From: Altererythrobacter sp. BO-6
GTDB taxonomy: Bacteria > Pseudomonadota > Alphaproteobacteria > Sphingomonadales > Sphingomonadaceae
Reading direction: 5' to 3'
Assembly (NCBI RefSeq): GCF_011047315.1
Contig: NZ_CP049259.1
Span: 992,001-1,056,000 of the forward strand
Length of the DNA: 64,000 bases
Within the stretch, counting starts at the first letter, position 1. The number at the start of each line of letters is the position of its first letter. The notes under the pieces are model-generated. The model had not been told where the DNA came from. It ran no database searches and saw only the letters and a list, made by a program, of their open reading frames with translations. Of this stretch, positions 9,832 to 51,757 are shown piece after piece. Made by a program: the position numbers and the translations under genes.

Positions 9832-10191
9832 CTATTCGCGTGACAGCTTTTCGACGATATCCGCGATCGGCGGATCGCCAGCATCCAGCGCTTCGACCTC
9901 CTGCTGGAAGCCGCGCATGATCCGCGCGATGTAGGCCCGCGTCGCCAGCCCGCGCTCTTCCCCGGCCTGCCGGTCGGGCGCGTAGTTTTCGATATCCTCG
10001 CGCCGGATCGTGCCCTTGGCATCGAGCAGGCGCTCGACCGTGTCCTGCCGCTCGCGCAGTGCGGAAACCTCCGCCGCTAGCGCGAAGACCGTGGAATAGA
10101 GCCGGTCAAGCGCGGGATCGTCGAAATACTCCGGGCGCTTGCCCTTCGCGCGGCGGCCCGAAAGCGCGACCCAGTCCAGCTCTTCACTCAT
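9832..10191 (-). CDS. small helical methyltransferase-partner protein (copy 1 of 3)
   Basis: The 119-residue protein starts at ATG 10191, overlapping the methyltransferase stop as ATGA. It has no signal peptide or membrane helix. Its core (about residues 24-72) is a long amphipathic helix, FALAAEVSALRERQDTVE, followed by a turn and EDIENYAPD. Two other genes, at 26755 and 50430, encode proteins with the same core, roughly LxxEVxxLxxRxxxxExLxxxxG then (D/A)I(E/D)xYxP, and each also follows a methyltransferase gene. I do not recognise a named family. Constant pairing and translational coupling suggest a subunit or activator of the methyltransferase. The C-terminal 40 residues are specific to this copy. 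Confidence 0.8.
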   Translation of the reverse strand: MSEELDWVALSGRRAKGKRPEYFDDPALDRLYSTVFALAAEVSALRERQDTVERLLDAKGTIRREDIENYAPDRQAGEERGLATRAYIARIMRGFQQEVEALDAGDPPIADIVEKLSRE

Positions 10192-11402
10192 GCCGCTTCC
10201 GCCTGTGCAACCGGTTTCCAGGCGCCATAGGCATTCCAGATCGCCGCGCGCCCATAATCCTCTTCGCCATCGTCCGGCGATGGCGGGAATATTTCCGGAT
10301 CGACCACCGCGCGCACCCCAACGGTAAACTGGCTTTCACGCGGGAAGCCGGCATCGGCCATCACCTGCTTCAGATCCTGCCCATGCATTGCCGACCAGAA
10401 CGGCTCATTATTGTTGAACGCATCCCAGTCGCGCATGAACTGTTCGAACAGCGGCATTTCGTCCGAATATTGCGGCTGTTCGATATGGAAGATCAGCCCG
10501 CCGGGAGCGAGCATGCGGTTCGCCTCTGCCAGAATGCGCGGCATGGCTTTCGCAGAAAGCTCGTGCAGGAACATGGTGGTCTGGACCCAGTCGAAATAGC
10601 CATCGGGCCAGCGCGACAGGTCCTCTCCCGATGCCTGGACGAACCTGATGTTCTTGACGCCCAGCCCGGCTGCGCGCGCCGCGCCATAGCGCAGCGAGGG
10701 CGCCGCTGTGTCGATCGCGATCACTTCGGCATCGGGGAAGGCCTGCGCGATCGGCACCGCGTTATGGCCCACCGTGCAGCCGATATCGAGGATGCGGCGC
10801 GGCTGCCAGTCTGGCCGCTCCTGCTTGATCCATTCGACAATCGCCTGCCCGCCGCCATCATTGAGCCCGCCCAGCGCACCGCCGGTCGTGGCGAACAGCC
10901 CGACGTCGTAATTGGCGCCCACGGTGATGTCGCCGGGCCGCTCTTCGCTGTGATAACCCCCGGGCTGGCAATGGATGTCCACCGCGGTCTGATAATGTGG
11001 CTGCTCGACCGCCGGATCGAGTTCGAGCATGCCCGAATGTTCGTTGTACTGCTTGGCCATGGCGTCGAGCTCATCGAGCTGGCGCAGTACCACCTGCCGC
11101 CCGTTGTGCTGGCGCATTTCCATCGAATTGCGCTTGAGCGCGGACCATGTGCGGTGCCATGGATCCTTGTTCATCGCGTCGCGGATCTCATAGCGATGCT
11201 CGGGATCGCGCCCGTGTTCGGCCCGAAAAGCGGGCAGCACGCGCTTTTCATAAGCGAGCCGGTTGCCCGCGCCGATCGGCCCCGACAGATAACGATTGAA
11301 ATGGGTCAGAAAATTGAATCGCGCCGCTTCGTCATGGGTGGTGCGCGGCATCATCGGATGGCGCGTCAGCGCGGTATAGGGCGGGGGAAGATCGGCGGAC
11401 AT
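10188..11402 (-). CDS. class I SAM-dependent methyltransferase with long N-terminal domain
   Basis: The start is ATG 11402, after GAGAGG and just downstream of the operator at 11420-11431; an upstream extension would cross that operator. The 404-residue product has an N-terminal domain of about 190 residues (NRLAYEKRVLPAF, SALKRNSMEMR, VDIHCQPGGY), then a Rossmann methyltransferase domain with motif I ILDIGCTVGHN, the acidic strand VIAIDTAA and the post-motif LAPGGLIFHIEQP. It is closely similar along its length to 42781-44001 and more distantly to 25641 and 50717. Such enzymes transfer a methyl group from SAM; the acceptor is unknown. The partner gene follows with an ATGA overlap. Confidence 0.9.
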   Translation of the reverse strand: MSADLPPPYTALTRHPMMPRTTHDEAARFNFLTHFNRYLSGPIGAGNRLAYEKRVLPAFRAEHGRDPEHRYEIRDAMNKDPWHRTWSALKRNSMEMRQHNGRQVVLRQLDELDAMAKQYNEHSGMLELDPAVEQPHYQTAVDIHCQPGGYHSEERPGDITVGANYDVGLFATTGGALGGLNDGGGQAIVEWIKQERPDWQPRRILDIGCTVGHNAVPIAQAFPDAEVIAIDTAAPSLRYGAARAAGLGVKNIRFVQASGEDLSRWPDGYFDWVQTTMFLHELSAKAMPRILAEANRMLAPGGLIFHIEQPQYSDEMPLFEQFMRDWDAFNNNEPFWSAMHGQDLKQVMADAGFPRESQFTVGVRAVVDPEIFPPSPDDGEEDYGRAAIWNAYGAWKPVAQAEAA

Positions 11403-11419
11403 CGCACTACCTCTCAAAG

Positions 11420-11431
11420 TTGTCCGGACAA
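11420..11431. promoter_or_regulatory. palindromic operator TTGTCCGGACAA
   Basis: This perfect palindrome is identical to those at 2307-2318 and 20760-20771. It lies 17 bases upstream of the methyltransferase start codon at 11402 and 3 bases upstream of its ribosome-binding site, a position suited to repression of the minus-strand unit 11402 to 8800. The gap to the preceding gene (stop at 11517) is 114 bases, enough for a separate promoter. Confidence 0.75.
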
Positions 11432-11516
11432 ATTTGACCGAAGCTATACCTCGTGTCAATCGCGAGTGTCGCCCCTTACCGAATAAAGTCCTTGACCGCT
11501 GTCAAACAGACCGAAT

Positions 11517-11972
11517 TCACCCAATGCGGTAGACCAGCACGAGATTGTCATCGAAATCGACAATGCCGATCTCCCGGCCGGTGCGCCCGTCATGAGTATG
11601 AAGTACTTCAGCGGGATAGACTTGCAGCCCAAGCTCGCGCGCGCTCGCTGCGACCTGATCCGGATCACCCGCTTCGAGCACCAGCGCTGCACGCCGCGGG
11701 TGTTGCGACGGTGGCAGGTCGATCCCGGCAATTTCGGTGAGTGCCATCACCCGCGGCTGGCCTGGCAGCGACAGGATTGCGAAACCCAGTTGCGCGCCAG
11801 CAGGGATTTCGAACAAGTCGATCGAATAGCTATCGGGATTGTGGCCCTGGCGATAGGTCACCTCGAACCCCAGTACATCGACATAGAATGACAACGCACG
11901 ATCAAGGTTAGCGACCACGAAATTGGCCCGCTGGAACCGGACCGGCGCGCATTCGGGATTCGTCACAGCCAT
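11517..11972 (-). CDS. VOC family protein, cytosolic
   Basis: The start is ATG 11972, which overlaps the end of the upstream reductase gene by 10 bases, giving 151 residues. The protein is a single two-module VOC domain: FQRANFVVANLDRALSFYVDV at the start, then the second module with ALVLEAGDPDQVAASARELG and a final strand VDFDDNLVLVYRIG. No signal peptide is present, unlike the VOC lipoproteins elsewhere in the window. The expected final-strand Glu ligand is replaced (LVLVYR), so metal binding is uncertain. It is co-transcribed with the MDR reductase and may act on the same intermediate; the reaction is unknown. Confidence 0.85.
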   Translation of the reverse strand: MAVTNPECAPVRFQRANFVVANLDRALSFYVDVLGFEVTYRQGHNPDSYSIDLFEIPAGAQLGFAILSLPGQPRVMALTEIAGIDLPPSQHPRRAALVLEAGDPDQVAASARELGLQVYPAEVLHTHDGRTGREIGIVDFDDNLVLVYRIG

Positions 11973-13051
11973 TCGCCCGGCTCCCCGCGCACGCTGCAGC
12001 ACTGGACCCCGACATTCTGCCCATAATAAAGGTTTGCGAGCGCGCGCGGCATCTCGGCAAACCCGTTGGCGATATCCTGAACAGGCTTCAACTTGCCGCC
12101 CCTGATCCAGCCGGCAAGATCTTCCATCACCTGTTCCCAGCGATCGAGATGGTTGTAAACGAAGAAGCCGCGCATGCTGCTGTCGGTTGCACGCAGCCGG
12201 GTATAGTTCGCCAGGCCGAATGGCTCGTCCCGGGTATATTCGCTGATCGACCCGCACAGCACGATCCGCGCATGCATCCGCAGCCGTTCGAGGCAGGCGG
12301 AAAGTATCTCGCCACCGACATTGTCGAAATAGAGGTCGATCCCATCCGGTCGCAATTCGTCAAGCCGGGCGGCGACAGCTTCGGCCTTATAGTCGATCGC
12401 GGCAGAGCAGCCGTGCTGCAGGACGAAACGGCATTTGTCGGGCCCGCCGGCCAGCCCGACCACGTCACAACCGGCCACATTCGCTGCGAGCTGGCTGACC
12501 ATCGAACCAACCCCGCCTGCCGCGCCGGACAGGACCATCCGGTCCCCTGCCCGGGGCTGGCCACAGGCGAATAGCCCGGCATGCGCGGAAAGGCCGGTCA
12601 TGCCCAACACGCCTGCACCCAGCGCGGCGGGCAGGCCATTGTTGGGCATACGGAAGAACTTTTCCTGCGGCGTCATCCGGCTGACTTTCCAGGTCTGCCA
12701 GCCCATTTGTCCCTGCACCACTTCGCCTTCACGCCATTGCGGATGGCGCGACTTCACGATCTGGGCAACGCCGCGTCCATGGATCAAGTCGCCGGGCTGG
12801 AGGATGTCATCCCCGGTCCGGGCGGTGCCCTGCATATAGAAGCGCATCACGGGCGCGAGCCCCAGATAGAGAGTCTTCAAGAGGACTTCGCCGGGCCCAG
12901 GTTCCGGTACATCCGTAACATGCCACGAAAAATCCTCGGGCCGAACGTTGCCTTGCGGCCGGCGCGCGATGCGCCACTGGCAATTCACCGCATCATCGAC
13001 TTCGCGGGCGGAAAGCACATCGAACCGGTCCAGCTCGGTCACTGTACCCAT
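11963..13051 (-). CDS. MDR-family NADP-dependent enone reductase (CurA-like)
   Basis: With ATG 13051 the product is 362 residues; a GTG three codons upstream has a better-spaced AGGA and is an alternative. The N-terminal GroES-like part holds PGPGEVLLKTLYLGLAP. The nucleotide-binding fold shows LSGAAGGVGSMVSQLA and the NADP-type segment GLAGGPDKC, followed by YFDNVGGEIL. No zinc ligands are seen, as expected for the leukotriene B4 dehydrogenase/curcumin reductase branch, which reduces the double bond of an alpha,beta-unsaturated ketone. It is divergent from the LysR gene, which may control it. Substrate unknown. Confidence 0.9.
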   Translation of the reverse strand: MGTVTELDRFDVLSAREVDDAVNCQWRIARRPQGNVRPEDFSWHVTDVPEPGPGEVLLKTLYLGLAPVMRFYMQGTARTGDDILQPGDLIHGRGVAQIVKSRHPQWREGEVVQGQMGWQTWKVSRMTPQEKFFRMPNNGLPAALGAGVLGMTGLSAHAGLFACGQPRAGDRMVLSGAAGGVGSMVSQLAANVAGCDVVGLAGGPDKCRFVLQHGCSAAIDYKAEAVAARLDELRPDGIDLYFDNVGGEILSACLERLRMHARIVLCGSISEYTRDEPFGLANYTRLRATDSSMRGFFVYNHLDRWEQVMEDLAGWIRGGKLKPVQDIANGFAEMPRALANLYYGQNVGVQCCSVRGEPGEWL

Positions 13052-13158
13052 GGCATGCACCCGTTTCCTGTCCCGCGCCGCTGGTCCCGCATTGGCGCCC
13101 GTCCTCTTATCGGCGAGAGGGTCCCAGCCGTTCGGCTGGCCCATCGCATTGATGCGCA

Positions 13159-13196
13159 TGCAGGGTGCAGGCTCCTATGCTTCCATGCGCCCTGCA
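13159..13196. repeat. inverted repeat TGCAGGG / CCCTGCA
   Basis: Two 7-base arms, 13159-13165 and 13190-13196, are perfectly complementary around a 24-base loop. They lie in the intergenic region upstream of the reductase start (13051), about 100 bases from it. The structure could fold in the reductase leader RNA or bind a regulator; nothing else identifies its role. Confidence 0.35.
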
Positions 13197-13229
13197 CGCG
13201 CTCGACCAGTCATAGCTGCGGCTGCTAGG

Positions 13230-13247
13230 ATTGTAATTCTTATCAAT
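13230..13247. promoter_or_regulatory. possible LysR-type binding site
   Basis: ATTG and CAAT half-sites bracket an AT-rich 18-base stretch in the divergent region between the reductase and the LysR gene, just upstream of the likely LysR promoter. LysR regulators typically bind such interrupted dyads near their own genes. The match is loose and unsupported by a second copy. Confidence 0.35.
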
Positions 13248-13251
13248 GCTT

Positions 13252-13280
13252 TTGACAGAACTATAAGCTCACCTTACTAA
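13252..13280 (+). promoter_or_regulatory. sigma70-like promoter of the LysR gene (TTGACA-17-TACTAA)
   Basis: A perfect -35 box TTGACA (13252-13257) is followed after exactly 17 bases by TACTAA (13275-13280). Transcription should begin near 13287, which is only a couple of bases before ATG 13289. The message would therefore be almost leaderless, and no Shine-Dalgarno sequence fits either ATG 13289 or ATG 13298. Confidence 0.55.
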
Positions 13281-13288
13281 ATCGGTGC

Positions 13289-14294: not shown

Positions 14295-15197
14295 ATGCTT
14301 CGACACCGATTTGTCGCAATGTGCCTGCCGTTAGCTGCTGGCTTGCTTGCTGTGCCGACGATGGCGGAACCACTCGACCAGGACGATCCGCAAGACGCGC
14401 TCAAGATCATGCGCAAGGCGATCTGTTCGCTCAATGATGGCGAGACTGTGATATATTGGTGGCAAGGCTCGATGTTCAGCCGCGTCGAGGGTGAGCGCGA
14501 TCGCAAGCTGTTTGGCCTTCAGGGCATGAACATCCGCCAATGCGCGACCGTGCGCGATCCACAGCGAGGCGAGGGGTTTCGCAGCGTCAGCCGCGAGATC
14601 ATGATCCATCTCGACCCCGAAACCGGCGAAGTGCGCGACAGCTGGACCAATCCATGGACCGGCGAGGAACTGGAAGTGATCCATGTCGCCAATGATCCGG
14701 TGAACATGCGCGCGCCGATTTTCGCCCGCCGCGCCGATGGAAAGCCGCTGACAACAGATTACCTCGTCATCAACGGCCGGGCGATCAGCACCGGCAATGC
14801 CCCGCTGTTCTACAAGAATCCGCTGGGCGGCGACTACCAGGACTGGGTCGGCGGCAGCTATCACGCGATGGAGATGGGCAACGAGTTCTTCTACGCCGAT
14901 GACCTGTTCGACGGTGACAAGCCGACCGTGGCGCATCATTCGATCAGCTGGTCACGCACGTCACGCTGGCTGCCGTGGATGAAAATGGGTGACCGCAACG
15001 GGATCGTCTACACCGCGACCGTCGGCGGGCGTGCGAACTCGATCGACGAGTTGCCCGAACCTTTGCGGACGACCTTGCGCGAACGCTATCCGCTCTATGC
15101 TGCCCCGCCGCCGCTTGATGACAAGCGTCCCAACGAAACCAGCTGGGAAGTGTTCAAGAAGCTGATGGAAACCCGCAAGCAAGGGGGCGAGAAATGA
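14295..15197 (+). CDS. exported DUF1838 family protein (copy 1)
   Basis: The 300-residue protein begins with a Sec signal peptide (MLRHRFVAMCLPLAAG to about residue 25, cleavage near TMAEP). The rest matches DUF1838: a beta-rich domain with SREIMIHLDPETGEV, NPWTGEELEVIHVANDPVN and the C-terminal RTSRWLPWMKMGDRNG. The family has no established function; its fold and periplasmic location suggest binding or modifying a small molecule. The next gene is a paralogue that overlaps it by 4 bases. Two more copies are at 37942 and 46218. It heads an operon with a VOC lipoprotein and a GxHxG hydrolase, all with export signals, and an operator lies at its ribosome-binding site. Confidence 0.88.
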   Translation: MLRHRFVAMCLPLAAGLLAVPTMAEPLDQDDPQDALKIMRKAICSLNDGETVIYWWQGSMFSRVEGERDRKLFGLQGMNIRQCATVRDPQRGEGFRSVSREIMIHLDPETGEVRDSWTNPWTGEELEVIHVANDPVNMRAPIFARRADGKPLTTDYLVINGRAISTGNAPLFYKNPLGGDYQDWVGGSYHAMEMGNEFFYADDLFDGDKPTVAHHSISWSRTSRWLPWMKMGDRNGIVYTATVGGRANSIDELPEPLRTTLRERYPLYAAPPPLDDKRPNETSWEVFKKLMETRKQGGEK

Positions 15198-16105
15198 TCC
15201 GCACTATTGCAACTGCAGCCGCGGCAGGTGCCCTTATCGCCAGCCCCCTCGCTGCCGATGAGCTGGATCCGAACAACGCGGATGACGCATTCCGCATGAG
15301 CACCAAGATGTTCTGCTCGCTCGAGACGGAAGATCCGACCGTCTATTACTGGGAGGGGACGGTCTATTCGGTGATCCGCGGCGAAAAGGACCGCCACCTG
15401 TTCGACGTGATCGCCATGAACACGCGGCAATGCGAAGCCTTTGAAGACCCGGTGCGCGGTGTGGGCTCGCGATCCGTCAGCCGCGAGGTGATGTTCTACC
15501 TCGATCCGGAAACCGGCGAAATCCTGCGCCAATGGAACAATCCGTGGACTGGTGAAACGGTGGAAGTGCTGCATGTCGCCAACGATCCGGTGAATTCGCG
15601 CAGACCCAGCTGGTCGCGCGACGAGAAGGGCGAGCCAACAGCGAAGTTCGATCCGATCGTCATGGGCGAGTATGCCTATCAGGGCGGCGGCGCGGCACTG
15701 CTGTTCTATGACAATCCGCTGGCGGGCGACTACCAGGATTACGTCGGCAACAAGTACCAGGCGGCCGAATTCCTGACCTGGACCGCGCCCCTTGCCGATA
15801 TCAAGGACGGCGATACGCCGCATGTGGTCGACAATGTCATTTCCTGGGGCCGGATTTCGCGCTGGCTGCCGTGGATGAAGATGGGCGGGCGTGAAGGCGT
15901 GCTGGTTTTCTATACCGGCGGCCTGAGGCTCAACACCTGGGACGAAATGCCGGACAAGATGAAGAACGAAATCCGCACGAATTACCCGGCCTATGTTGCG
16001 CCGCCTCCGGTCGACGACGATCGACCCAACGACACGAGCTGGACCGTTGCCAAGCGTGCGATCGATGCCGCGCGCGCCGCCAAAGAGCCAGCGGGAAGCG
16101 AATGA
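15194..16105 (+). CDS. exported DUF1838 family protein (copy 2)
   Basis: This 303-residue protein starts at ATG 15194, overlapping the previous stop as ATGA. It has a short Sec signal peptide (to about ASPLAADE) and the same DUF1838 core as copy 1: SREVMFYLDPETGEI, NPWTGETVEVLHVANDPVN and ISRWLPWMKMGGREG, ending in the Pro-rich VAPPPVDDDRPNDTSW. The two tandem copies align over their length, so they arose by duplication and may form a heterodimer or act on successive compounds. The function is unknown. Confidence 0.88.
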   Translation: MIRTIATAAAAGALIASPLAADELDPNNADDAFRMSTKMFCSLETEDPTVYYWEGTVYSVIRGEKDRHLFDVIAMNTRQCEAFEDPVRGVGSRSVSREVMFYLDPETGEILRQWNNPWTGETVEVLHVANDPVNSRRPSWSRDEKGEPTAKFDPIVMGEYAYQGGGAALLFYDNPLAGDYQDYVGNKYQAAEFLTWTAPLADIKDGDTPHVVDNVISWGRISRWLPWMKMGGREGVLVFYTGGLRLNTWDEMPDKMKNEIRTNYPAYVAPPPVDDDRPNDTSWTVAKRAIDAARAAKEPAGSE

Positions 16106-25640: not shown

Positions 25641-26744
25641 ATGACCCACATCGCCGAAATCTATAGCGCCGATCATGACGAAGCCGCACGCCAGGCCTTT
25701 GTCGGCGCACTCAAGTCGCATGTGAACGGCCCGATGGAGGCCGACCTTGCCGAACTGTACGAAAAGAAGCTTGCCGCGCGTGATAGTGGCCAGCTCGACG
25801 ATGTTATCGCCTTGTACGAGCGCGAAGCGCCCTATCAGCTCTGGGGTAGCGCAGTGTACACCTCGCAGGATCTCCTGTGGGAATCGGTCGGGCAGACGGT
25901 CGACCGGGTAACGCCCGAATTCGATGCGCGCTGGCAGGCGCTGCAGGATCGAGGAGAAACGCTAGGCTCGCTCGTGCTCGATCCGGAGCTTGCCCTTCCT
26001 GAGCCAATTGCCTCGCGCGAAATCCATCGCCAGCCGGGCGGCTATTTCCACGAAACCGGCCCCGACGACCTGATCTCACCCCTGCTCTATTTTTCCAGCG
26101 TCGAGCTCTATCGCGCCGCAAAGGGCCTTGGGACCAATGCCAAAACCGGCCAACCCGGGATGGCACCGTTGATGCTGAAGGTGCTGGGCGAGAAGTTCAC
26201 AGGGTTTGCACCCAAGCGTATTCTCGATCTTGGCTGCGGCCCGGGCACGGAAACACTCGGTTTTGCCCGCGCATTCGAGGGTGCAGAGGTTCATGGCCTC
26301 GACCTTTCGGCGCCGTTTTTGCGCTTCGCCCACCTGTGGGCAGAGGAGCACGAAATTCCCGTCCATTACCGGCAGGGCAATGCCGCGTGCACGCCTTATC
26401 CTGACGGGCATTTCGACCTCATCGTCTCACATATCCTGTTCCACGAGACATCGCATGAGATCCTGCCGCAGATCATGCAGGAGGCACAGCGCCTGCTCGC
26501 ACCCGGCGGCGTATTCCTCAATGCCGACGTGGCCTACCAGATGCACCGTATCCCGGTTCCCAAGCAGGTCACCAACGCCTGGCAGGTTGCCTACAATGGC
26601 GAGCCCTTCTGGCGCGGTTTCGCGGAGACCGACGTGACTGACGCCATGCGCGCGGCAGGTTTCGACGAGGACAGGATCTTCGCCGATTACATCCCGCTCG
26701 GCAGCGGCGACTATTTCATGTTCGGCGCCAGCAAGGCGGGCTAA
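25641..26744 (+). CDS. class I SAM-dependent methyltransferase with N-terminal domain
   Basis: The 367-residue protein starts after AAGGAGACGTC. An N-terminal domain of about 180 residues contains LDPELALPEPIASREIHRQPGGYF, which corresponds to the DP...HxQPGGY segment of the homologues at 10188 and 42781. The Rossmann domain follows with motif I ILDLGCGPGTE, VHGLDLSAPFL, and LLAPGGVFLNADV. The insert after it, ending YNGEPFWRGFAETD, also matches the other copies. The methyl acceptor is unknown. A small helical partner gene follows after 10 bases, repeating the pairing seen at 10188 and 50717. Confidence 0.9.
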   Translation: MTHIAEIYSADHDEAARQAFVGALKSHVNGPMEADLAELYEKKLAARDSGQLDDVIALYEREAPYQLWGSAVYTSQDLLWESVGQTVDRVTPEFDARWQALQDRGETLGSLVLDPELALPEPIASREIHRQPGGYFHETGPDDLISPLLYFSSVELYRAAKGLGTNAKTGQPGMAPLMLKVLGEKFTGFAPKRILDLGCGPGTETLGFARAFEGAEVHGLDLSAPFLRFAHLWAEEHEIPVHYRQGNAACTPYPDGHFDLIVSHILFHETSHEILPQIMQEAQRLLAPGGVFLNADVAYQMHRIPVPKQVTNAWQVAYNGEPFWRGFAETDVTDAMRAAGFDEDRIFADYIPLGSGDYFMFGASKAG

Positions 26745-26754: not shown

Positions 26755-27048
26755 ATGAGCAAACCCGACCAGCCCGGCGCGATTTCCCTGCTGAACGATC
26801 CTGACCGCAAGAAGCCGCAATTCCTGGATAACCCGGGTCAGGACAAGGCAGTCGCTGCAATCCTGCGGCTCGCGATGGAAATTTCGGTCCTGCGCGACCG
26901 GATCGACACGCATGAAGCCCTGGCCGAGCAAAGTGGGGCCTACACCGCCCTGGATGTGGAATCCTACAATCCCGATCCGGAGCGTGCGGCCAGGCGCGCC
27001 GCGCGCCGCAAAAGCCTGATCGAAGGGTTGATGCACGATCTTTCCTGA
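26755..27048 (+). CDS. small helical methyltransferase-partner protein (copy 2 of 3)
   Basis: The 97-residue protein contains the shared core: LRLAMEISVLRDRIDTHEAL, a short loop with a Gly, and DVESYNPDPE, matching EVSALRERQDTVERLL/EDIENYAPD in copy 1 and EVAVLSDRVMVLEELL/AIDTYQPSD in copy 3. The N-terminus has a DNPGQD segment preceding the helix, as copy 1 has DDPALD. The C-terminus is rich in Arg. No signal peptide or membrane segment is visible. It ends the plus-strand run and converges with the SDR gene, whose stop is 6 bases away. The function is unknown. Confidence 0.8.
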   Translation: MSKPDQPGAISLLNDPDRKKPQFLDNPGQDKAVAAILRLAMEISVLRDRIDTHEALAEQSGAYTALDVESYNPDPERAARRAARRKSLIEGLMHDLS

Positions 27049-37941: not shown

Positions 37942-38985
37942 TCAGAACGGCAGCTTCGGCGGCGGGGCGACGGGCACTACCCCGTTGACCAGCGGCGCCG
38001 GTGTCTGTTCGCGCGAATACATCTCGAGCGATGACAGCGAGTCCTTCTCCCACGCGTCAGGACCGGGAGCCTCGAGATATTTGGGATAGTGTTTGGCCGC
38101 GTATTCAACTGCAACCGGATCGGCATACTCAAGCGAGTCCACCGCGCCGAAATGGCAGGTGTAGAAGCAATGACCATCAGTCGGCCCCATCAACATCCAC
38201 GGCAGCCACGGTGTAATGCGGTTCCACACCCCGCGCGCCTTCACTGCTGTCAGGCTGGGATCCTGCATCTCGTCCCAGTTGAAGTGATAGAGGAACATCT
38301 CGCTCACCCGGTTGAACTTGCCCGGGCTTTCGCGCGGCCACTTTTCCGGCTGAAGCGCAGATGGATAGAACAGGTTGATCCGCCGCGAGAGGTTCAAGTC
38401 GTTGCCGTGGCGCTCCCAATTGAGGATCATCGGCACCTTCTTGGGCTTTTCGGTATTCAGACCCCCATAAGTCGGTGGCGGAGGATTGTAGGCAGTAATC
38501 AGCTCATTGAACGGATCATTGGCGATCGGGACCACCCGCACGCGCTCCTCGAGATAGGGGTTCTGCCAATATTCCATGATCTCGCCGGTCTCAAGGTCGG
38601 TATAGAAACCCACCTCGCGCAGCACCTTGCGATATCCGGGATATTCGGGATCGTTCGAGGGCAGCAGCTTTGCTGCGCTGAAACCGGTGAAGCCGAACAG
38701 GTCACGCACCTTTTCGTTCGGCCGTGCGCCATGCACGACGCCCTTGAACCAGCCAAACTTGGTCGTCTCCATGTCGATATTGCCGTTGGTCCGGCCGATC
38801 GCCTCGCGATTGCCCTCGGGTGTGGTGAGATCCAGGTAATCGCCGACAAGGCTCGTTTCCATTCCCTTGCCGCCATGTGCGCCCTTGTGGCTGTGACCCA
38901 TGGTCATAGCTTCGGCGGCGGCATGGCCCAACACGAGGGATGAGGCGCCTGCGGCACCTGCCATCATGAAATCTCTTCTATGCAT
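37942..38985 (-). CDS. Tat-exported DUF1838 family protein (copy 3)
   Basis: The 347-residue product starts with a Tat-type signal (MHRRDFMMAGAAGASSLVLG, cleavage near AAAEA) followed by a His-rich linker (MGHSHKGAHGG). The DUF1838 core shows DLETGEIMEYWQNPY, VRVVPIANDPFNE and ITPWLPWMLMGPTDG. Tat export of this copy suggests folding, perhaps with a cofactor or metal, before translocation; the His-rich stretch could bind metal. It is longer than copies 1 and 2 and lies next to VOC and DUF3598-like genes. The molecular function is unknown. Confidence 0.88.
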   Translation of the reverse strand: MHRRDFMMAGAAGASSLVLGHAAAEAMTMGHSHKGAHGGKGMETSLVGDYLDLTTPEGNREAIGRTNGNIDMETTKFGWFKGVVHGARPNEKVRDLFGFTGFSAAKLLPSNDPEYPGYRKVLREVGFYTDLETGEIMEYWQNPYLEERVRVVPIANDPFNELITAYNPPPPTYGGLNTEKPKKVPMILNWERHGNDLNLSRRINLFYPSALQPEKWPRESPGKFNRVSEMFLYHFNWDEMQDPSLTAVKARGVWNRITPWLPWMLMGPTDGHCFYTCHFGAVDSLEYADPVAVEYAAKHYPKYLEAPGPDAWEKDSLSSLEMYSREQTPAPLVNGVVPVAPPPKLPF

Positions 38986-42780: not shown

Positions 42781-44001
42781 ATGACCGATATCAGCATCGC
42801 ACCGCCCTATACGGAAGTGCACCAGCATGATGTCTTTCCCAAGCCTAACCATGACGAAGCGGCGAGGTACAATTTCCTCGCAAACTTCAACCGCTACATG
42901 GCGCAGGCACTCGGGCCCGGTAATGCACTCGCTTACGAAAAGCGCGTACTGCCGAAATTCATCGCCGAACATGGCCGCGAACCGAACAACCGCCACGAAG
43001 TGCGCAAGGCTATGAATGCAGACCCGTATCACCGGATGTGGTCGGCGTTGCGGCGCAATTCGATGGAATTCCGCCAGCAGAACGGGCGCGGCATTGTGCT
43101 GCGCCAGCACGCCGAACTTTCGGAAAAGATACGCGAAGCCAATGGCAACGGCCCCGGGCTGGAGCTTGACCCAACGATTTCCACCCCGCGTTATCAGGAT
43201 GCCGTAGATATCCATTGCATGCCGGGAAGCTATCACGGGGAAGAATGCCCTGGCGATTTCTCAGCGGGTGCAAATTACGACAGTGGCATCTTCGCGACCA
43301 CGGCGGGCGGCATTGGCGCGCTGTCCGACGGTGCGGGGCAGGCCATCGTCGACTGGATCAAACGCACCCGGCCGGGCTGGCAGCCGCGCCGCGTGCTCGA
43401 TATCGGTGTGACAATCGGGCACAATATCGTCCCGCTGGCGCTGGCGTTTCCGGAAACGGAGATTGTCGCGATAGACACCGCCGCACCCGTGCTGCGGTAT
43501 GGCCATGCCCGTGCTCGGGCGCTGGGCGCGCACAACATCACTTTCATCCAGGCCAATGCGGAAGACCTGTCGCGCTGGGCGGACGGGCATTTCGACTGGG
43601 TGCAAACCACCATGTTCATGCACGAAACCAGCCGCTCGGCGCTGCCCCGGATCATGGCCGAGGGGTATCGCGTGCTCGCTGAAGGCGGGCTCATGCTGCA
43701 CCTCGAGCAGCCGCCCTACAAGCCGGAAATGCCGGTCTACGAGCAGTTCATCCGCGACTGGGATTCGTTCAATAACAACGAGCCATTCTGGAGCACGGTC
43801 CACACGCTGAACCTTACCGGCATGATGCAGGATGCCGGGTTCGACGAAAGCGAAGTGTTCGAGGATCACGTCAAGGCCGTGGTCGATCGCAGCGTTTTCA
43901 CCGCCACCGCCGACGAGGGCGAGAAGGAAGATCATGGTCGCGCCGCAGCCTGGTATGCGCTGGGCGGATGGAAGGGCAGTCACGGGGAAGCCGCCGCCTG
44001 A
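42781..44001 (+). CDS. class I SAM-dependent methyltransferase with long N-terminal domain (close paralogue of 10188-11402)
   Basis: The 406-residue protein matches 10188-11402 along its whole length: PPYTEVHQHDVFPKPNHDE, NALAYEKRVLPKF, SALRRNSMEFR, VDIHCMPGSYHGE and motif I VLDIGVTIGHN. In motif I the usual Gly-Cys-Gly is IGVTIGHN, parallel to IGCTVGHN in the paralogue. EPFWSTVHTLNLTGMMQDAGF is also shared. Unlike the other three methyltransferases it is not followed by the small helical partner gene; its stop overlaps the start of a beta-lactamase-fold gene as TGATG. The acceptor is unknown. Confidence 0.9.
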   Translation: MTDISIAPPYTEVHQHDVFPKPNHDEAARYNFLANFNRYMAQALGPGNALAYEKRVLPKFIAEHGREPNNRHEVRKAMNADPYHRMWSALRRNSMEFRQQNGRGIVLRQHAELSEKIREANGNGPGLELDPTISTPRYQDAVDIHCMPGSYHGEECPGDFSAGANYDSGIFATTAGGIGALSDGAGQAIVDWIKRTRPGWQPRRVLDIGVTIGHNIVPLALAFPETEIVAIDTAAPVLRYGHARARALGAHNITFIQANAEDLSRWADGHFDWVQTTMFMHETSRSALPRIMAEGYRVLAEGGLMLHLEQPPYKPEMPVYEQFIRDWDSFNNNEPFWSTVHTLNLTGMMQDAGFDESEVFEDHVKAVVDRSVFTATADEGEKEDHGRAAAWYALGGWKGSHGEAAA

Positions 44002-45284
44002 TGCAACGGGCCAACAGCCGTAGCAGGATCGAGGCAGCGCTCCACCGCGCTGAAATCTGCCTGGCGGCTTGCTTGCTGGGATGGTCCGCACCGTTGCTGG
44101 CGCAAGATTTTCCCCCGAATGTCTCAAACCCGGACCAAGCAATCACTGACTGGCGCTACAACGATCCCGTCTTTTTCTGGCGCTTGGCCTCGCAACCCGA
44201 AGACCCGTTCGAACCACCTGACTGGTTCTACTGGCCAGACGCGGTGATCGAAGGCGCCCCTGCCCCCTTCCTGCCGCAGGTCGAGCAGGGGCGTGAGACC
44301 ATTTCGCCCGCCGCACTGCGGGATATGGAAGCTTGGGCCGAGGCACGGAAAAGCAACGTCCTGATCGTGATCCATAAGGGCCAGGTACTGCTCGAACGGT
44401 ACTGGAACGACACCAGGCCCGACCAACTGCTTAACGGTCGGGCCATCTCCCGCTCGGTCACGCCGATGGTTCTGGGTTTTGCGGCAGAGGACGGCAAATT
44501 GTCGCTCGACGATCCGATCGGCAAGTTCATCACCGAATGGCAGGAAGATCCCCGCGGGAAGATTTCGATCCGCCAGCTTGCCCAGAATGTATCCGGCCTG
44601 GAAGTCGCCAGGCAAATGCCAGCCGACCAGATCGAAGGAAACAAGGACCTGTGCCTCGTTTATTGCGGCGATGTGGTTCGTGCCGCTCTCGCCTACGATC
44701 TGGTGACCGCGCCTGGCACCAGGTTCGAGGTCGCGCAGGAAAACATGCAGCTGCTGGCGCTGGTCATCGAACGGGCAACCGGCACCCCGATCCAGACGCT
44801 CGTCTCGCGGCACATCTGGCAGCCGATGGGCGGATCTAATGCGACATTCCAGTTCGACCGGCCCGGTGGCACCGCCCGCACCATGTGCTGCATGCGGGCA
44901 ACGGCGCGCGACTGGACGCGACTTGGCGTGCTGCTTGCCAATCAAGGCAAATGGCAAGGGCGGCAAGTGGTGCCGGCCAGCTGGATTGCGACCATGGCAA
45001 CGCCATCAGCCCGCAACGCGAATTTCGGGCTGGGCCTGTGGCTTGGCTCACCCTTTGTCGAAATGCGTGGCTATTTCGAAGGTCAGCCAGGGGTCATCCC
45101 GCAGTCCGAACCGTTCCTGGCTGACGATGTCAGGATCATGGAAGGCGGCGGCTTCCGGATCGTTCATGCTGTGCCTTCGCAAGAGCTGGTGATCTTCCGC
45201 CACGGCCAATTCGTGGATGATTGGGACACGGCATTTCTGGTGAACACGGCGATCCGCGGGATGCAAAAAGGCAAACGCCGATGA
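44001..45284 (+). CDS. exported beta-lactamase-fold protein with degenerate active site
   Basis: The start is ATG 44001, overlapping the methyltransferase stop as TGATG, giving 427 residues with a signal peptide ending near LLAQD. The fold is that of serine beta-lactamase/class C esterases and it aligns well with 53189-54547. However, the SxxK motif reads SVTP (152-155), so Lys is Pro, and the YxN motif reads VAQ (244-246), so both Tyr and Asn are lost. Only the Ser remains. The protein is therefore probably a pseudoenzyme, perhaps a ligand-binding or partner subunit. It is coupled to a periplasmic hydrolase downstream by an ATGA overlap. Confidence 0.85.
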   Translation: MQRANSRSRIEAALHRAEICLAACLLGWSAPLLAQDFPPNVSNPDQAITDWRYNDPVFFWRLASQPEDPFEPPDWFYWPDAVIEGAPAPFLPQVEQGRETISPAALRDMEAWAEARKSNVLIVIHKGQVLLERYWNDTRPDQLLNGRAISRSVTPMVLGFAAEDGKLSLDDPIGKFITEWQEDPRGKISIRQLAQNVSGLEVARQMPADQIEGNKDLCLVYCGDVVRAALAYDLVTAPGTRFEVAQENMQLLALVIERATGTPIQTLVSRHIWQPMGGSNATFQFDRPGGTARTMCCMRATARDWTRLGVLLANQGKWQGRQVVPASWIATMATPSARNANFGLGLWLGSPFVEMRGYFEGQPGVIPQSEPFLADDVRIMEGGGFRIVHAVPSQELVIFRHGQFVDDWDTAFLVNTAIRGMQKGKRR

Positions 45285-46228: not shown

Positions 46229-47105
46229 ACGCAGCTTTGTCGGTTCCGCCGCCGCTCTTTCAGCAGGTAGTGCGATGCTCAATTCCGGGACAGCAATGGC
46301 CAAGAAGGCGCAAGCGCAACATTGGCCCGAAAATCCCAAGATGACGTCGCAATTCGTGGAATTCGACGATCCGATCGAGGAGTTCGAAGCCCATTTCCGG
46401 ATCGAGCGTGACCTGGTGGAGCACCAAGGGACAGCGCTCACATGGTTCTACTGGATGGTCTACATGGTGCCTGGCGACCGTCCGCCCCTGCCGATGCTGC
46501 GCTACGAAGGATTGGAGTACAGCTATTTTCGCAAGGTGGCGGACCACACCTATCGCATCCATGCGCACAATATCTCGGTGCCGATGAGCCTGGAAACCAA
46601 TGATTACATGGAATCCATGGTCAACCCATTGACCGGCGAGACCATCGCCACACCGACCAACCTGCTGCTCAACGATCCAGGCACTGTGCATTCGCCCAAG
46701 GGGTTCCGCAATGTCTCCAGTGATGGCTCGCGCTACACCGTCCCCTATCGCCAGTTTCGCCTTGAGAACGGCAAGATGAAACTCGACAGCATTCGCTCGG
46801 CCCCGCCCGACTGGCCGCTCAATCACATGGAAAGCTCTATCCAGGAGGTCGACTATGACGATTTCATGGACAAGAGCATCACCAGCCTCGCGACCAAATC
46901 GACCGGGGTCTACGTCTTCCCCTATTCGAAGTGGATGAACATGGGCGACAGGCCCGGCCATCTTTTGGGCTATTGGGATGCCTACAAGATTCCGAGCGTG
47001 CAGCACTTTCCGGACAAGTTCCTGAGCAAACTGGAACGCGATCATCCCGATCTTCTCGAACCAAGGTGGGATGACTTCGAACGGCCGGTTTCGTTTGAGT
47101 ACTAA
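46218..47105 (+). CDS. Tat-exported DUF1838 family protein (copy 4)
   Basis: The start is ATG 46218, giving 295 residues that begin with a Tat signal (ISRRSFVGSAAALSAGSAM, cleavage near TAMAK). It is the most diverged DUF1838 copy: RIHAHNISVPMSLET, VNPLTGETIATPTNLLLNDPG and YSKWMNMGDRPGHLLGYW correspond to the HVANDPVN and WLPWMKMGDRNG regions of copies 1 and 2. It sits between a periplasmic hydrolase and a PhyH-type oxygenase. The function is unknown. Confidence 0.82.
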   Translation: MISRRSFVGSAAALSAGSAMLNSGTAMAKKAQAQHWPENPKMTSQFVEFDDPIEEFEAHFRIERDLVEHQGTALTWFYWMVYMVPGDRPPLPMLRYEGLEYSYFRKVADHTYRIHAHNISVPMSLETNDYMESMVNPLTGETIATPTNLLLNDPGTVHSPKGFRNVSSDGSRYTVPYRQFRLENGKMKLDSIRSAPPDWPLNHMESSIQEVDYDDFMDKSITSLATKSTGVYVFPYSKWMNMGDRPGHLLGYWDAYKIPSVQHFPDKFLSKLERDHPDLLEPRWDDFERPVSFEY

Positions 47106-48194: not shown

Positions 48195-48236
48195 ACGGTC
48201 GCCTGACAAGCCAATGTGCAGGCGCATGGCAGCTGA

Positions 48237-49454
48237 TCAGTCGATTGCTCGCGCCAGCAAATTAGGCAGGACTGAATCGTCGAACTGCAGGTTGACGAGC
48301 CCCGAACGTGCGATCGTTAGCCCCTTGGACGGCATGACGTATACCCGCTGCCCGCCAAACCCGTCGAAATAAACGATGTCCTTCGCGACAAAGGGTTCTG
48401 CGTGCGGAACCTTGACGGGATTGGCCGCGCTGTAGGCGCGCTGCGGCGTCCACTCACGCCCCAGCCAGACCTGTAACCCATACTGGGCATTGGCCGCCGA
48501 CGGCTTTGCCATCGCCGCTATCCAGGCTGCCGACACGATCTGCCTGCCATTCGCCCTCCCCTTATTGCGAATGATCTCGCCGATCCGCGCCCAGTCCCGC
48601 AGGTTCGCATGCAACCCGGCATAACCGCGCATCTTGCCCGCCGCATCAAGCCAGATCAGCGCCTCCGATCCGCCCATCTGGCACCACAGTTCCGAATGCA
48701 GGAACTGCTCAAGGCTGGCATACCCCGCAGCTGTGACCCGGTGATCGAGCGCGAGAGCCAGTACCTTGCTTACCGCGTTGCCATAAGCAAATTCGCTGCC
48801 CGGAGTGGTAGCCAGTTCAGTCTGCAAGGCCACCGCCGCCACATCCGGCGCGAAGATCATCTGCATGAAATTGGCCTGGCCAAGCCCGCTCGACATGGTC
48901 AGCATCTGGCGCAACGTAATCTCGCCGCGCGGATCTCCAGCCCATTCGGCAACATAATTGCCCACTGGATCGTCGATCGAACCGATAATCCCTTTGTCGA
49001 GCGCGATCCCGTACAGCAGGGCGAGGACTGATTTCATCTGCGAAGCAGATGCGGTCAGCGTCGTTTCGTCAGCCCCGTCGGCATAGCTTTCATGAACCAG
49101 CTGGCCGTCTTTCATCACGATCAGGCCGACGCCTTGCTGCTCGTCGGAATAGGCCTTGGCCACCGCTATCGCCGCGGCAAGCTTCGGGTCGGCGGCCTCA
49201 GCTTTTGGCACTGGAGCCGCAGTGCAGGCGGTAAGGCGATAAGTGGGCCGATAGCGTTCGACATCCAGGATCGTCGCGCCCTGGAATTCGTCCGGCCGCA
49301 TCGGGTTGTCGAGATCCGAATAGAGCGAGGCCTGGTCGGCAATCGCCGCATTCGACGAAGCCGTCTCAGCTGCAGTCGGCGTTGCCGTTACGCTGGCACA
49401 GGAAGGCAGCAGCAACGCGCTCGTAATCGCGAGGGCAAGAGCACGTGTCCGCAT
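48237..49454 (-). CDS. lipoprotein serine hydrolase, beta-lactamase/class C esterase fold
   Basis: The start is ATG 49454, giving 405 residues with a lipoprotein signal (lipobox LLPSC, Cys19). The active site looks intact: SQMK (138-141) for SxxK and YGN (224-226) for YxN, with GFGGQRVYVMPSKG near the C-terminus. Family members are esterases, amidases or peptidases; resistance to antibiotics is not implied by this context. It is the last gene of the minus-strand operon and starts 3 bases after the COG4188-like hydrolase. It is a paralogue of 53189-54547 and of the degenerate 44001-45284. It should act on the periplasmic side of a membrane. Confidence 0.9.
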   Translation of the reverse strand: MRTRALALAITSALLLPSCASVTATPTAAETASSNAAIADQASLYSDLDNPMRPDEFQGATILDVERYRPTYRLTACTAAPVPKAEAADPKLAAAIAVAKAYSDEQQGVGLIVMKDGQLVHESYADGADETTLTASASQMKSVLALLYGIALDKGIIGSIDDPVGNYVAEWAGDPRGEITLRQMLTMSSGLGQANFMQMIFAPDVAAVALQTELATTPGSEFAYGNAVSKVLALALDHRVTAAGYASLEQFLHSELWCQMGGSEALIWLDAAGKMRGYAGLHANLRDWARIGEIIRNKGRANGRQIVSAAWIAAMAKPSAANAQYGLQVWLGREWTPQRAYSAANPVKVPHAEPFVAKDIVYFDGFGGQRVYVMPSKGLTIARSGLVNLQFDDSVLPNLLARAID

Positions 49455-49456
49455 AT

Positions 49457-50443
49457 TCAATCTTCCTGATAGCTTTCGCCGGCCGACGCATCGCCGAGGG
49501 CACAAACGTCCGCACGATTGACATGCCGGTCGATGAAATTGAGGCTTACAGCCAAAGCACGCCGGAAGAGCGCTTGGCTGCTCGCTGTTGCAGGCTTCTC
49601 GCGCCCGAACATGCCGCCAAAATAGTGATCGATCCCTTCGCCCACCCATAGTGCGCGATTACCTTGCGGCGCATAGTCATGGGACGCCTTGTGCGCGCGC
49701 CAATCATCAATGAATCCAGGCAGGATGTCGGCCGTGCCGGTGATCGTGAGTGTCGGCTTGGCAAGCGTGCCCCAGCCTTCTGCCGAAATCATGCCGGGCA
49801 CTTGGCCCGGCGGCGACCAACCTACCACTGCATCAACCGCTGAATTCGCCCGATTGACCTGCGAACCGTCCGGCTCCGTCGCCATGGCGCCCCCGGGCAA
49901 TTGCGCCATGATCGCGCCATAGCTGTGCCCGACCGAGGCAAGCCGTTCGGGATCGATTTTCATCCCTCGCTCCGCAAGCGCTCCAGTGATCTCAGCGGTT
50001 GGATCAAGCGCCAGCGCCATATCGAGATTGCGCGTACGCCAGGTGTCCGCCGGCGCCGGCCGCTCCGGCAATCCGAACTCTTCTGAATCGATATGCATCG
50101 GCGCAATCACGATATAGCCCGCGGCCGCCAGCGAAGCGAGCATCGCGCGATATCGCGTCGGGCTGGCAAAGGCACCATGCGAGAAGCCGATCAGCGGATA
50201 GGTTCCGGCCTGTTCAGGGACGAAGATAGTCAGAGGTACCTTGCGACCATTCTCGGCAGTTGCAGTTAGCGAAATTTCAGCAGAGGTCCCGGAAAGCCGC
50301 TCGGCACAGGTGGATACAACGGCCGGTGCTACCCGTTGATCGGTCGTCGCACACCCTGCCAGGGTGATGCCGACAACCAAAGCCGAAGCCAGGCGCCCCC
50401 GCCGCACAACACCCTGCAAACCAGACGTATCAATTGCCGCCAT
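49457..50443 (-). CDS. lipoprotein alpha/beta hydrolase (dienelactone hydrolase/PAF-acetylhydrolase-like)
   Basis: ATG 50443 overlaps the small partner gene by 14 bases and gives 328 residues; ATG 50470 is an alternative. A lipoprotein signal (lipobox TLAGC) follows a short charged N-terminus. The hydrolase domain shows PLIGFSHGAFASPTRYRAML, AGYIVIAPMHID, the nucleophile elbow ASVGHSYGA with Ser, TGTADILPGF with an acid and GIDHYFGG with a His. The layout resembles COG4188 dienelactone hydrolases, platelet-activating-factor acetylhydrolases and chlorophyllases. It likely cleaves an ester in the periplasm or outer-membrane face. Confidence 0.87.
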   Translation of the reverse strand: MAAIDTSGLQGVVRRGRLASALVVGITLAGCATTDQRVAPAVVSTCAERLSGTSAEISLTATAENGRKVPLTIFVPEQAGTYPLIGFSHGAFASPTRYRAMLASLAAAGYIVIAPMHIDSEEFGLPERPAPADTWRTRNLDMALALDPTAEITGALAERGMKIDPERLASVGHSYGAIMAQLPGGAMATEPDGSQVNRANSAVDAVVGWSPPGQVPGMISAEGWGTLAKPTLTITGTADILPGFIDDWRAHKASHDYAPQGNRALWVGEGIDHYFGGMFGREKPATASSQALFRRALAVSLNFIDRHVNRADVCALGDASAGESYQED

Positions 50444-50720
50444 CGGCACCTTGCAGTGCAGCGATGACATTACCAGCGATCACTTGCAGCGCCTTGTCCG
50501 CCCGCGCCTGAAATTGGTCCGAAGGCTGGTAGGTGTCGATCGCTTCGCGCAACACAACGCCGTTCTGCTCAAGCAATTCCTCAAGCACCATCACCCGGTC
50601 GCTCAACACAGCGACTTCGCGCGTCAAAGTCAGCACGGCACGGGCCACATTGTCGATATTGTGCGGCCCGAAAATGTCGGATTCGGGAGTATTGAAGCTC
50701 TTCGGATCGACGGCGCTCAT
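50430..50720 (-). CDS. small helical methyltransferase-partner protein (copy 3 of 3)
   Basis: The 96-residue protein starts at ATG 50720, overlapping the methyltransferase stop as ATGA. It carries the same core as the proteins at 9832 and 26755: LTLTREVAVLSDRVMVLEEL, a Gly-containing loop and EAIDTYQPSD. Heptad-like spacing of Leu and Val suggests a coiled coil. The C-terminus is Ala-rich and differs between copies. It has no signal peptide although it lies between a methyltransferase and two exported hydrolases. The function is unknown; a role as a methyltransferase subunit is inferred from repeated pairing. Confidence 0.8.
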   Translation of the reverse strand: MSAVDPKSFNTPESDIFGPHNIDNVARAVLTLTREVAVLSDRVMVLEELLEQNGVVLREAIDTYQPSDQFQARADKALQVIAGNVIAALQGADGGN

Positions 50721-51757
50721 GGTTTGCGACCCTGGATGACGTGCGGATAGGTTCCTTCCGCCTTCACGTCGACAAATCCTGCCTCACGCGCGATTTCGGC
50801 CAGGTCCAGGCTCGCGCTTTCACGCCAATGCGGCTCCCCGCCGAATTTCGCTCCGCGATCGGCCTTCCACACGGCCAGCTTGTCCATATCGGCAAAGCGC
50901 GTCACATCGCTCATCAGCATGTCGCCACCGGGTTCGAGCAGGCGGAACGCTTCCTTGAACAGCTTGCGGATCGCATCGGCCGGCATTTCGTGCAGGATGA
51001 TATAGCTCGCGACCAGGTCAAAACTCCCGTCGGGAAACCCGGTATCCTCCGCCAGCTTCTGGTAGAGTTTCCAACTCCAGCCTTTGGCATTGGCCGTGCG
51101 CCATGCGTGCTTGAGCATTTCCGCTGACAGTTCGACCCCGGTGATCTCCGCATCGGGATAGGCCAGTTGCAGGCCAGTAGTGAAATGCCCGGAGGAACAG
51201 CCCATGTCCAGGATGCGCTTGTAGTCGTCGCGCGGTGCCATCTTGGCCACATCGCGGCGCTGCTGGAAGATGCCGCCGGGAAAGAAGCGCGCGACCATCT
51301 TCTTATGGACGATCTCGCCATGGACATAGCCCATTTCGGGGTGCCCGTCCCACGGGCCGGTGCGATGGAAGCTTACGCCATCCCAATAGGCAGGAGGCTG
51401 CAGATCTGGATCGAGTACCAGTGTCGCCGGCCCCGCCTGCGAAGCTTCAAACGCTTCCGTCAAGTCGCGCTTGATCTCTTCATAAGCCTCGGCCGCGATC
51501 CTGCCATGCATGCGCCCATGCCAGTCGCCCAGCAATTGCTGCATCGTGTAGGCGCCGCAGTCAGCCAGCAAGGCATCCATATGGGCCAACCGCTCGTCGA
51601 GGTCGTCGGGCAAAGCAGACGGATCGGGCACGCGCTGCGCAATTGCTGCATCGACACCTTTACGCACGTCATTCGAAGCAATCGCCATTTGCGCCAGGAA
51701 ATCGACCGAGGCACGGCCACGCTGGCGCAATTGAGGGTCCTGATAGGTCTGGTTCAT
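50717..51757 (-). CDS. class I SAM-dependent methyltransferase with N-terminal domain
   Basis: The 346-residue protein starts at ATG 51757, overlapping the transporter stop as ATGA. The N-terminal domain of about 170 residues contains LDPDLQPPAYWDGVSFHRTG, which lines up with the LDP...P...VDIH segment of the other copies. The Rossmann domain shows motif I ILDMGCSSGHF, ITGVELSAEML, and LLEPGGDMLMSDV. It is the most diverged of the four methyltransferases and the shortest. The small partner gene follows with an ATGA overlap. The acceptor is unknown. Confidence 0.9.
   Translation of the reverse strand: MNQTYQDPQLRQRGRASVDFLAQMAIASNDVRKGVDAAIAQRVPDPSALPDDLDERLAHMDALLADCGAYTMQQLLGDWHGRMHGRIAAEAYEEIKRDLTEAFEASQAGPATLVLDPDLQPPAYWDGVSFHRTGPWDGHPEMGYVHGEIVHKKMVARFFPGGIFQQRRDVAKMAPRDDYKRILDMGCSSGHFTTGLQLAYPDAEITGVELSAEMLKHAWRTANAKGWSWKLYQKLAEDTGFPDGSFDLVASYIILHEMPADAIRKLFKEAFRLLEPGGDMLMSDVTRFADMDKLAVWKADRGAKFGGEPHWRESASLDLAEIAREAGFVDVKAEGTYPHVIQGRKP

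Follow-up and report, generated by a model that had tools for sequence, protein, structure and literature searches.

Paired methyltransferase and small-protein genes in catabolic clusters of Sphingomonadales: a probable two-subunit enzyme

Several methyltransferase genes of one bacterial gene cluster are each accompanied by a gene for a small protein of the same kind; are the two products parts of one enzyme? The question is raised by a stretch of 64,000 nucleotides from Altererythrobacter sp. BO-6 (contig NZ_CP049259.1, positions 992,001 to 1,056,000; this whole stretch is the window), in which an earlier note, made from the sequence alone, had described three such pairs and proposed that the small protein is an obligate subunit of the methyltransferase. 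The two genes co-occur across genomes, adjoin each other and commonly overlap, are inherited together and are both kept where they have been split apart, and the larger one encodes conserved catalytic motifs. As judged from sequence, the pair is probably a two-subunit class I S-adenosylmethionine (SAM)-dependent methyltransferase of catabolic gene clusters. All six open reading frames (ORFs) of the three pairs were found where the note had placed them, on the strands it gave, and the features of the window are as follows:

10188-11402, minus strand: putative large subunit of pair 1, a predicted class I SAM methyltransferase (ORF, translation, match to the N-terminal-domain profile)
about 10803-11402: N-terminal domain of the pair 1 methyltransferase, unnamed
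9832-10191, minus strand: small protein of pair 1 (P0004), 119 residues (ORF, ATGA overlap with the methyltransferase gene)
25641-26744, plus strand: putative large subunit of pair 2, with the N-terminal domain at about 25641-26204
26755-27048, plus strand: small protein of pair 2, 97 residues, starting 10 bases past the methyltransferase stop
50717-51757, minus strand: putative large subunit of pair 3, with a divergent N-terminal domain at about 51230-51757
50430-50720, minus strand: small protein of pair 3, 96 residues (ATGA overlap with the methyltransferase gene)
42781-44001, plus strand: solo methyltransferase related to those of the pairs, without an adjacent small gene

Reading the DNA across the junctions bore out the two ATGA overlaps (10188-10191 and 50717-50720) and the gap of pair 2, where 10 bases separate the TAA stop from the ATG at 26755. 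The three pairs are thus real, but three is an undercount: there are two more pairs just outside the window, and a sixth methyltransferase at 42781-44001, whose closest relative in the host is the pair 1 methyltransferase (61% identity); the latter is itself 91% identical to a methyltransferase of Erythrobacter tepidarius. Altogether the host genome (3.04 Mb, one contig) holds five copies of the small protein and six methyltransferases with the N-terminal domain, all within about 71 kb (genome positions about 987.9-1059.0 kb). The fourth pair lies on the minus strand with a 4-base overlap (small gene 987943-988197, methyltransferase gene 988194-989381). The fifth has the reverse order, small gene first (small part at about 1058.7-1058.9 kb), and its two parts stand in one frame in the ORF 1057510-1058994 (L007:2510-3997). 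A true fusion was considered for this ORF and rejected: its nearest relative is 93% identical, 363 residues long and unfused, the best 120 of 485 relatives are likewise unfused at 277-368 residues, and the junction of the small and methyltransferase parts falls at a GC run with an apparent indel, so that we read it as a local indel. By a crude estimate, the chance that all five small genes adjoin one of six methyltransferase genes is about 1e-14 genome-wide, and 1.4e-6 if restricted to the 71-kb cluster.

Whether the association extends beyond this host was addressed in samples of genomes from its order (60 genomes), family (199) and class (240), each including the host, and from its phylum (249). 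In the order sample the small protein was found in 10 genomes and the methyltransferase N-terminal domain in the identical ten; 28 of 30 small-protein matches lie <=0.8 kb from an N-terminal-domain match (25 on the same strand, 3 on the opposite one), and 28 of 35 methyltransferase matches are paired with a small gene. Among the seven unpaired methyltransferases, one (G003:C3) adjoins a weak small-protein match (E 3e-4) and two are 127-residue ORF fragments. Family genomes, in each of which at most 22 small-protein and 16 methyltransferase candidates were scored, gave the small protein in 40 and the methyltransferase in 37, all of them among the 40; the three genomes with the small protein only have weak matches (E 1e-8 to 8e-4). 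Leaving out the host, there are 92 small-protein and 87 methyltransferase matches in this sample, of which 81 are adjacent, all on the same strand, the methyltransferase gene coming first in 74 and the small gene in 7. In 34 of 36 genomes the two genes have the same number of copies (r 0.98). Of the 11 unpaired small genes, five belong to split pairs, two lie in G541, a fragmented genome, and four are weak matches (E 1e-8 to 8e-4); of the six unpaired methyltransferases, five belong to split pairs and one lies in G541.

In the class sample the small protein occurs in 15 genomes, the methyltransferase in 16 and both in 14, the genome with the small protein only (G066) having a weak match. Host aside, coordinates place 24 of 40 small-protein matches <=2.5 kb from an N-terminal-domain match; the DNA around the other 16 was read, and seven more adjoin a methyltransferase that had gone unscored in the capped scan, which brings the total to 31 of 40; in three of these the two ORFs are separated by 1.2-1.5 kb. 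Hypergeometric probabilities for the co-occurrence, host excluded, are 8e-11 (order), 1.5e-18 (class) and 2e-36 (family), all overstated since relatedness is ignored. The phylum sample has the small protein in three genomes (one weak) and the methyltransferase in two; its only case outside the class, G373, has the two genes next to each other on one strand. Nine plasmid records carry the small protein (E <= 1e-3), eight of them with the methyltransferase (E <= 1e-30), and in all eight the best-matching places, to which the comparison was confined, are adjacent. The earlier note had named small proteins lying mostly away from such methyltransferases as the pattern that would speak against it; in the order, family and class samples most lie beside one.

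Detail at the junction came from a collection scan with pair-1-like methyltransferases, which gave at least 591 relatives among at least 596 stretches, and from which 80 named loci were kept. These belong to Erythrobacter, Altererythrobacter, Novosphingobium, Sphingomonas, Blastomonas and other genera and, further afield, to Steroidobacteraceae, Stenotrophomonas, Alteromonas, Brevundimonas and Nitrospirillum. The small gene is directly downstream on the same strand for 87 of their 92 methyltransferases, and 68 of these 87 pairs overlap by exactly 4 bases (ATGA). The evidence supports an association that is conserved, old, nearly 1:1 and specific to this methyltransferase subtype.

Could the two genes simply be neighbours carried along in catabolic islands, with no joint function? 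The clusters are patchy and present on plasmids, as such an explanation would have it. Yet the co-occurrence holds in 36 of 36 family genomes once the host is set aside, and both members are kept when they are separated. Five genomes (G531, G572, G589, G644 and G549) each have, on one contig, an unpaired small gene and an unpaired methyltransferase gene that share a strand and are separated by about 5 to 15 kb containing other ORFs, and a sixth split pair, about 13 kb apart, is found in G003. The split pairs fall into two ortholog groups. Within the group G531/G572/G589/G644 the methyltransferases are 70-87% identical and the small proteins 54-82%; between G003 and G549 the values are 57% and 43%. 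Given the equal numbers, we infer that the members of each split pair are partners of each other. Their retention after separation argues for joint function; linkage, overlapping frames or co-transcription would not readily account for it on their own, and we regard mere linkage as barely credible.

The history of the two genes was followed in a midpoint-rooted tree of 159 methyltransferases, 129 paired and 30 solo, for which the reversed host pair was manually assigned the paired state and four unpaired rows, located at the ends of stretches, were excluded. The paired and solo states change 9 times on this tree, as against 28 for shuffled labels; paired rows stand on both sides of the midpoint root, and solo rows fall into several nested groups. 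Distances among the methyltransferases correlate with those among their partners at 0.93 over 125 pairs (2 of 127 were dropped as short), with a permutation maximum of 0.25; among distant methyltransferases only, the correlation is 0.43. When the nearest methyltransferase neighbour at a distance of 0.5 or more is taken, its small protein ranks within the closest 5% in 39 of 125 cases (permutation mean 6, maximum 15). Same-genome co-occurrence, equal copy number, split pairs, the tree and the distance correlation together support the two-subunit reading. Another idea is that the small protein regulates the operon, or translation of the methyltransferase, from outside the enzyme, and to this the ATGA coupling and a basic KGKRP-like stretch in the small protein lend something. 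On the other hand, every paralogous host methyltransferase but one has its own diverged partner, the partners diverge with the methyltransferases, and no DNA- or RNA-binding family in Pfam or NCBIfam is matched above cut-off; such a regulator is very improbable.

Several observations weigh against a two-subunit enzyme. Of the sampled methyltransferases, 30 of 159 are solo, a share inflated by the deliberate fetching of unpaired methyltransferases and by short flanks in some cases. The methyltransferase comes without a small-protein match in two genomes of the class, G118 and, as a weak match, G281, and 9 of the 40 class-sample small-protein matches have no methyltransferase nearby. Two of these nine are strong orthologs, G217:C5:215048 (1e-34) and G087:C1:31722 (1e-33), both with a Lys/Ala-rich N-terminal tail and with neighbours that by eye are a GMC oxidoreductase and a cytochrome-like gene; five others are at G259:C6, G157:C412, G283:C4, G085:C54 and G157:C503 (near the contig start), and the remaining two, in G066 and at G087:C60:23262, are weak. 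A small gene on plasmid p1 of Novosphingobium ES2-1 has no methyltransferase match within the 16 kb read. No natural fusion of the two proteins appeared among the best 120 of 485 relatives of L007:2510-3997, nor among the best 120 of 4021 for a query made by reading through the stop of an in-frame neighbour pair (4021 proteins at E <= 1e-10, some of which may be other methyltransferases). Finally, shared descent of neighbouring genes is expected to account for part of the co-inheritance.

The five solo methyltransferases of the named loci (L129, L132, L133, L135 and L137) group with that at 42781 in the window, and each is about 2.4-2.7 kb from another, complete pair. The clade of six has an SH-aLRT support of 99, and set against 65 paired relatives from L068-L139 it differs in only four conserved columns; keeping nearly all conserved residues makes it plausible that the partner is supplied in trans, and a solo methyltransferase would probably be served by a partner made elsewhere in the cell. 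G087 and G217 have at least 13 methyltransferases each (13 of 58 and 13 of 62 candidates scored) and seven small-protein matches each, and among their methyltransferases with flanking DNA read, many have no small gene near. The proposal of an obligate subunit therefore fares unevenly: the nearly 1:1 association speaks for it, but the solo methyltransferases (42781 in the window, 5 of 92 in the named loci, those of G087 and G217) and the small genes without a methyltransferase (9 of 40 in the class, ES2-1) make strict obligacy doubtful.

What does the larger gene encode? The window methyltransferases are divergent (30 and 25% identity of the other two to P0001) and share a layout in which an ordinary Rossmann SAM domain is preceded by an unnamed domain of about 170-200 residues. 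Methyltransf_25/11 is matched above the Pfam cut-off in all three (in pair 1, Methyltransf_25 at E 4e-18, residues 204-302); Pfam and NCBIfam recognise the Rossmann part and not the N-terminal domain. The shared N-terminal domain of the earlier note holds for the family, with a segment H-x-x-P-G-G/S-Y in which H144 is invariant in 26 of 26 aligned methyltransferases and P147 and G148 are present in at least 90%; the segment is, however, degenerate (HRT-GPW) in the pair 3 methyltransferase at 50717-51757. Among the best 60 of 179 rows found in the PDB with the whole-methyltransferase profile, no best stretch starts before profile position 161, and the N-terminal-domain profile gave one chain at E 0.11, which we take as chance. 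Named relatives, among those listed, are class I SAM-dependent methyltransferase, methyltransferase domain-containing protein and UbiE. By Rossmann domain and motif I, then, the large subunit classes as a predicted class I SAM-dependent methyltransferase. Non-methylating members of the SAM fold exist, and the pair might instead be a two-part enzyme whose Rossmann fold binds SAM or S-adenosylhomocysteine and which carries out some other catabolic reaction; the catabolic surroundings and the presence of several paralogs in one degradative cluster would suit this. Among 163 distinct methyltransferases, however, motif I is kept in 158, an FDxV-like motif in 155 and LxPGG in 159, as in ordinary class I enzymes, and we consider a non-methylating enzyme quite unlikely.

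The small proteins, about 85-125 residues long, have mostly hypothetical proteins as annotated relatives, and the family has 1271 matches at E <= 0.01 among 8000 scored. The common core that the earlier note had seen in them is confirmed: the three of the window align with 15 invariant columns, the other two being 33 and 31% identical to P0004, and across the family a conserved basic KGKRP-like stretch precedes amphipathic helices, whose E...R....E pattern is nearly invariant. A hydrophobic-moment scan gives P0004 amphipathic stretches near residues 25-60 and 82-117. Nothing in Pfam or NCBIfam is matched above the curated cut-off, and a search of PDB chains with the small-protein profile gave no match at E <= 1. 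The idea that the small protein is homologous to a segment of the methyltransferase N-terminal domain was rejected (hhalign probability 0.2%). In L159 (3246-3884) and L160 (3720-4358) the small domain forms the terminal part of a protein whose tail is rich in Lys/Ala and histone-H1-like; these genes are distant from methyltransferase matches, and the ORFs beside them are GMC oxidoreductase-like and cytochrome-like.

A role for the small protein in the same or a neighbouring step, as carrier, chaperone, product remover or second enzyme and not as a stable methyltransferase subunit, deserves more consideration than the other alternatives, though we still think it unlikely. Matching copy numbers and the split pairs are compatible with any step that obligatorily involves both proteins, and PigF/PigN, as far as the account in PMC6667630 goes, is a two-gene methylation step whose second protein is called an oxidoreductase. 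On the other side, no enzyme or carrier family in Pfam or NCBIfam is matched above cut-off, no site with conserved Cys or His was seen, Cys is absent altogether from 109 of the 125 small proteins, and the strongest conservation is in charged residues of the helices.

In the two-subunit enzyme that we favour, the partners would form a physical complex, the small protein binding to the large subunit, most likely at the N-terminal domain, and activating it. By analogy with Trm112 and its methyltransferases, it may keep the large subunit soluble and competent for SAM or substrate; ATGA-coupled translation would set a 1:1 ratio, and the substrates would be small molecules handled within the catabolic gene clusters.

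The earlier note knew of no described system of this kind. The family itself is unnamed in the libraries and literature searched, and, judged by titles, none of the open-licence papers listed describes the pair; the kind of system, a two-part methyltransferase, is already known. The literature covered was that on two-component or heterodimeric methyltransferases, on their auxiliary proteins and on DUF1838 together with methyltransferases (one paper, on aurantimycin); nothing turned up on a small protein of Erythrobacter or Sphingomonadales or on an estradiol methyltransferase of Novosphingobium. Closest in mode of action is Trm112, likewise a small dedicated protein partnering class I methyltransferases: as set out in the review PMC5372719, it keeps its partners (Trm9, Trm11, Mtq2 and Bud23) soluble and enables SAM binding, and one Trm112 serves several methyltransferases sharing <20% identity. 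Trm112 is a zinc-knuckle protein whose methyltransferases modify tRNA, rRNA or eRF1, whereas the small proteins here (0 of 125 with four or more Cys, no Pfam match) belong to catabolic clusters. Membership in the Trm112 family is excluded on sequence, there being no zinc-knuckle Cys and no Trm112 Pfam match at E <= 1. PigF/PigN of prodigiosin synthesis, compared by description only, also unites a SAM methyltransferase and a second protein in one small-molecule methylation step; PigN differs in being an oxidoreductase, and the pathway is biosynthetic, not catabolic, in what PMC6667630 says of it.

Two profiles match the methyltransferases themselves. The best NCBIfam match of the three in the window is CpaM (NF043040, corrinoid protein-associated methyltransferase), in the Rossmann part; it starts at residue 162 or later, leaving nearly all of the N-terminal domain outside, and the scores of 54.7, 56.9 and 63.7 bits are below the curated cut-off of 180. 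The PADLOC profile mad2 of the MADS defence system is matched at E 1e-12 to 2e-22, over about 125-150 residues of its 492 positions (256-411), again the Rossmann part, and the surroundings here are catabolic. A defence or phage origin was rejected, with the mad2 matches confined to the Rossmann part and a weak match of P0006 to ZorA (E 0.009); P0004 and P0005 had no match in PHROGs, P0006 had two weak ones (E 0.002 and 0.07), and we take these and the ZorA match for chance helix matches.

If the small protein is a required subunit, methyltransferases of this type expressed alone may appear inactive, and pathway studies may miss a component; the split pairs and solo methyltransferases offer a natural test of partner action in trans. 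A wider proposal is speculative, and we would not expect it to hold in full. It takes the pairs as members of an extensive unnamed superfamily of methyltransferases that act on small molecules and consist of two subunits, common in Sphingomonadales and occurring also on plasmids and in Gammaproteobacteria. Each catalytic subunit would be activated by a helical partner of its own, while in some lineages a single small subunit would serve many solo enzymes arisen by expansion; together they would be a combinatorial set of methylation tools for natural-product breakdown.

The surroundings of the pairs are catabolic. In the window area they include flavin adenine dinucleotide (FAD) oxidases, aldehyde dehydrogenases, an MFS transporter, DUF1838, VOC, PhyH and MmgE/PrpD proteins and, named by eye, TonB receptors; recurrent neighbours in the 80 loci are MFS transporters (36), carbon-nitrogen hydrolases (33) and FAD oxidases (21). 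Beyond pair 1 lie a 230-residue protein (9114-9806) without a Pfam match, membrane-like by eye, with relatives in 32 of the 80 loci, and a DUF1330 protein (8800-9102) with relatives in 22. A linked block (674-8197 of the window and 53-1379, 11024-12178 and 17757-18677 of L006) encodes PuuE-like hydrolases, an isochorismatase-fold amidase, LeuC/LeuD-like and HMG-CoA-lyase-like proteins, a carbon-nitrogen hydrolase, a CaiB coenzyme A-transferase and RipB/RipC-like proteins; the LeuCD and lyase matches pass the subfamily cut-off, and the PuuE, CaiB and Rip matches are below it. PuuE-like enzymes presumably act on cyclic imides, for which a literature search found no support, and the block may carry out the last steps of a pathway that passes through a cyclic imide and a methylmaleate. 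It is possibly a trace of pyrrole or tetrapyrrole breakdown; a literature search on pigment or tetrapyrrole breakdown as the substrate route, considered from the neighbours, gave nothing useful.

Some protein families recur within the cluster. Several DUF1838 proteins are present (14361-15197, 37942-38967 and, weakly, 46275-47105 of the window; 1518-2438 of L006), with another by eye at 15194-16105. Beta-lactamase-family (serine hydrolase) proteins are encoded at 48237-49454 of the window and 6961-8160 of L006, and the products of 43968-45284 and 53189-54577 resemble them by eye. On plasmid pJE1 (L212) the neighbours of a pair include hydantoinase genes and genes for FAD oxidoreductases and for a protein annotated as RedY-like HapK.

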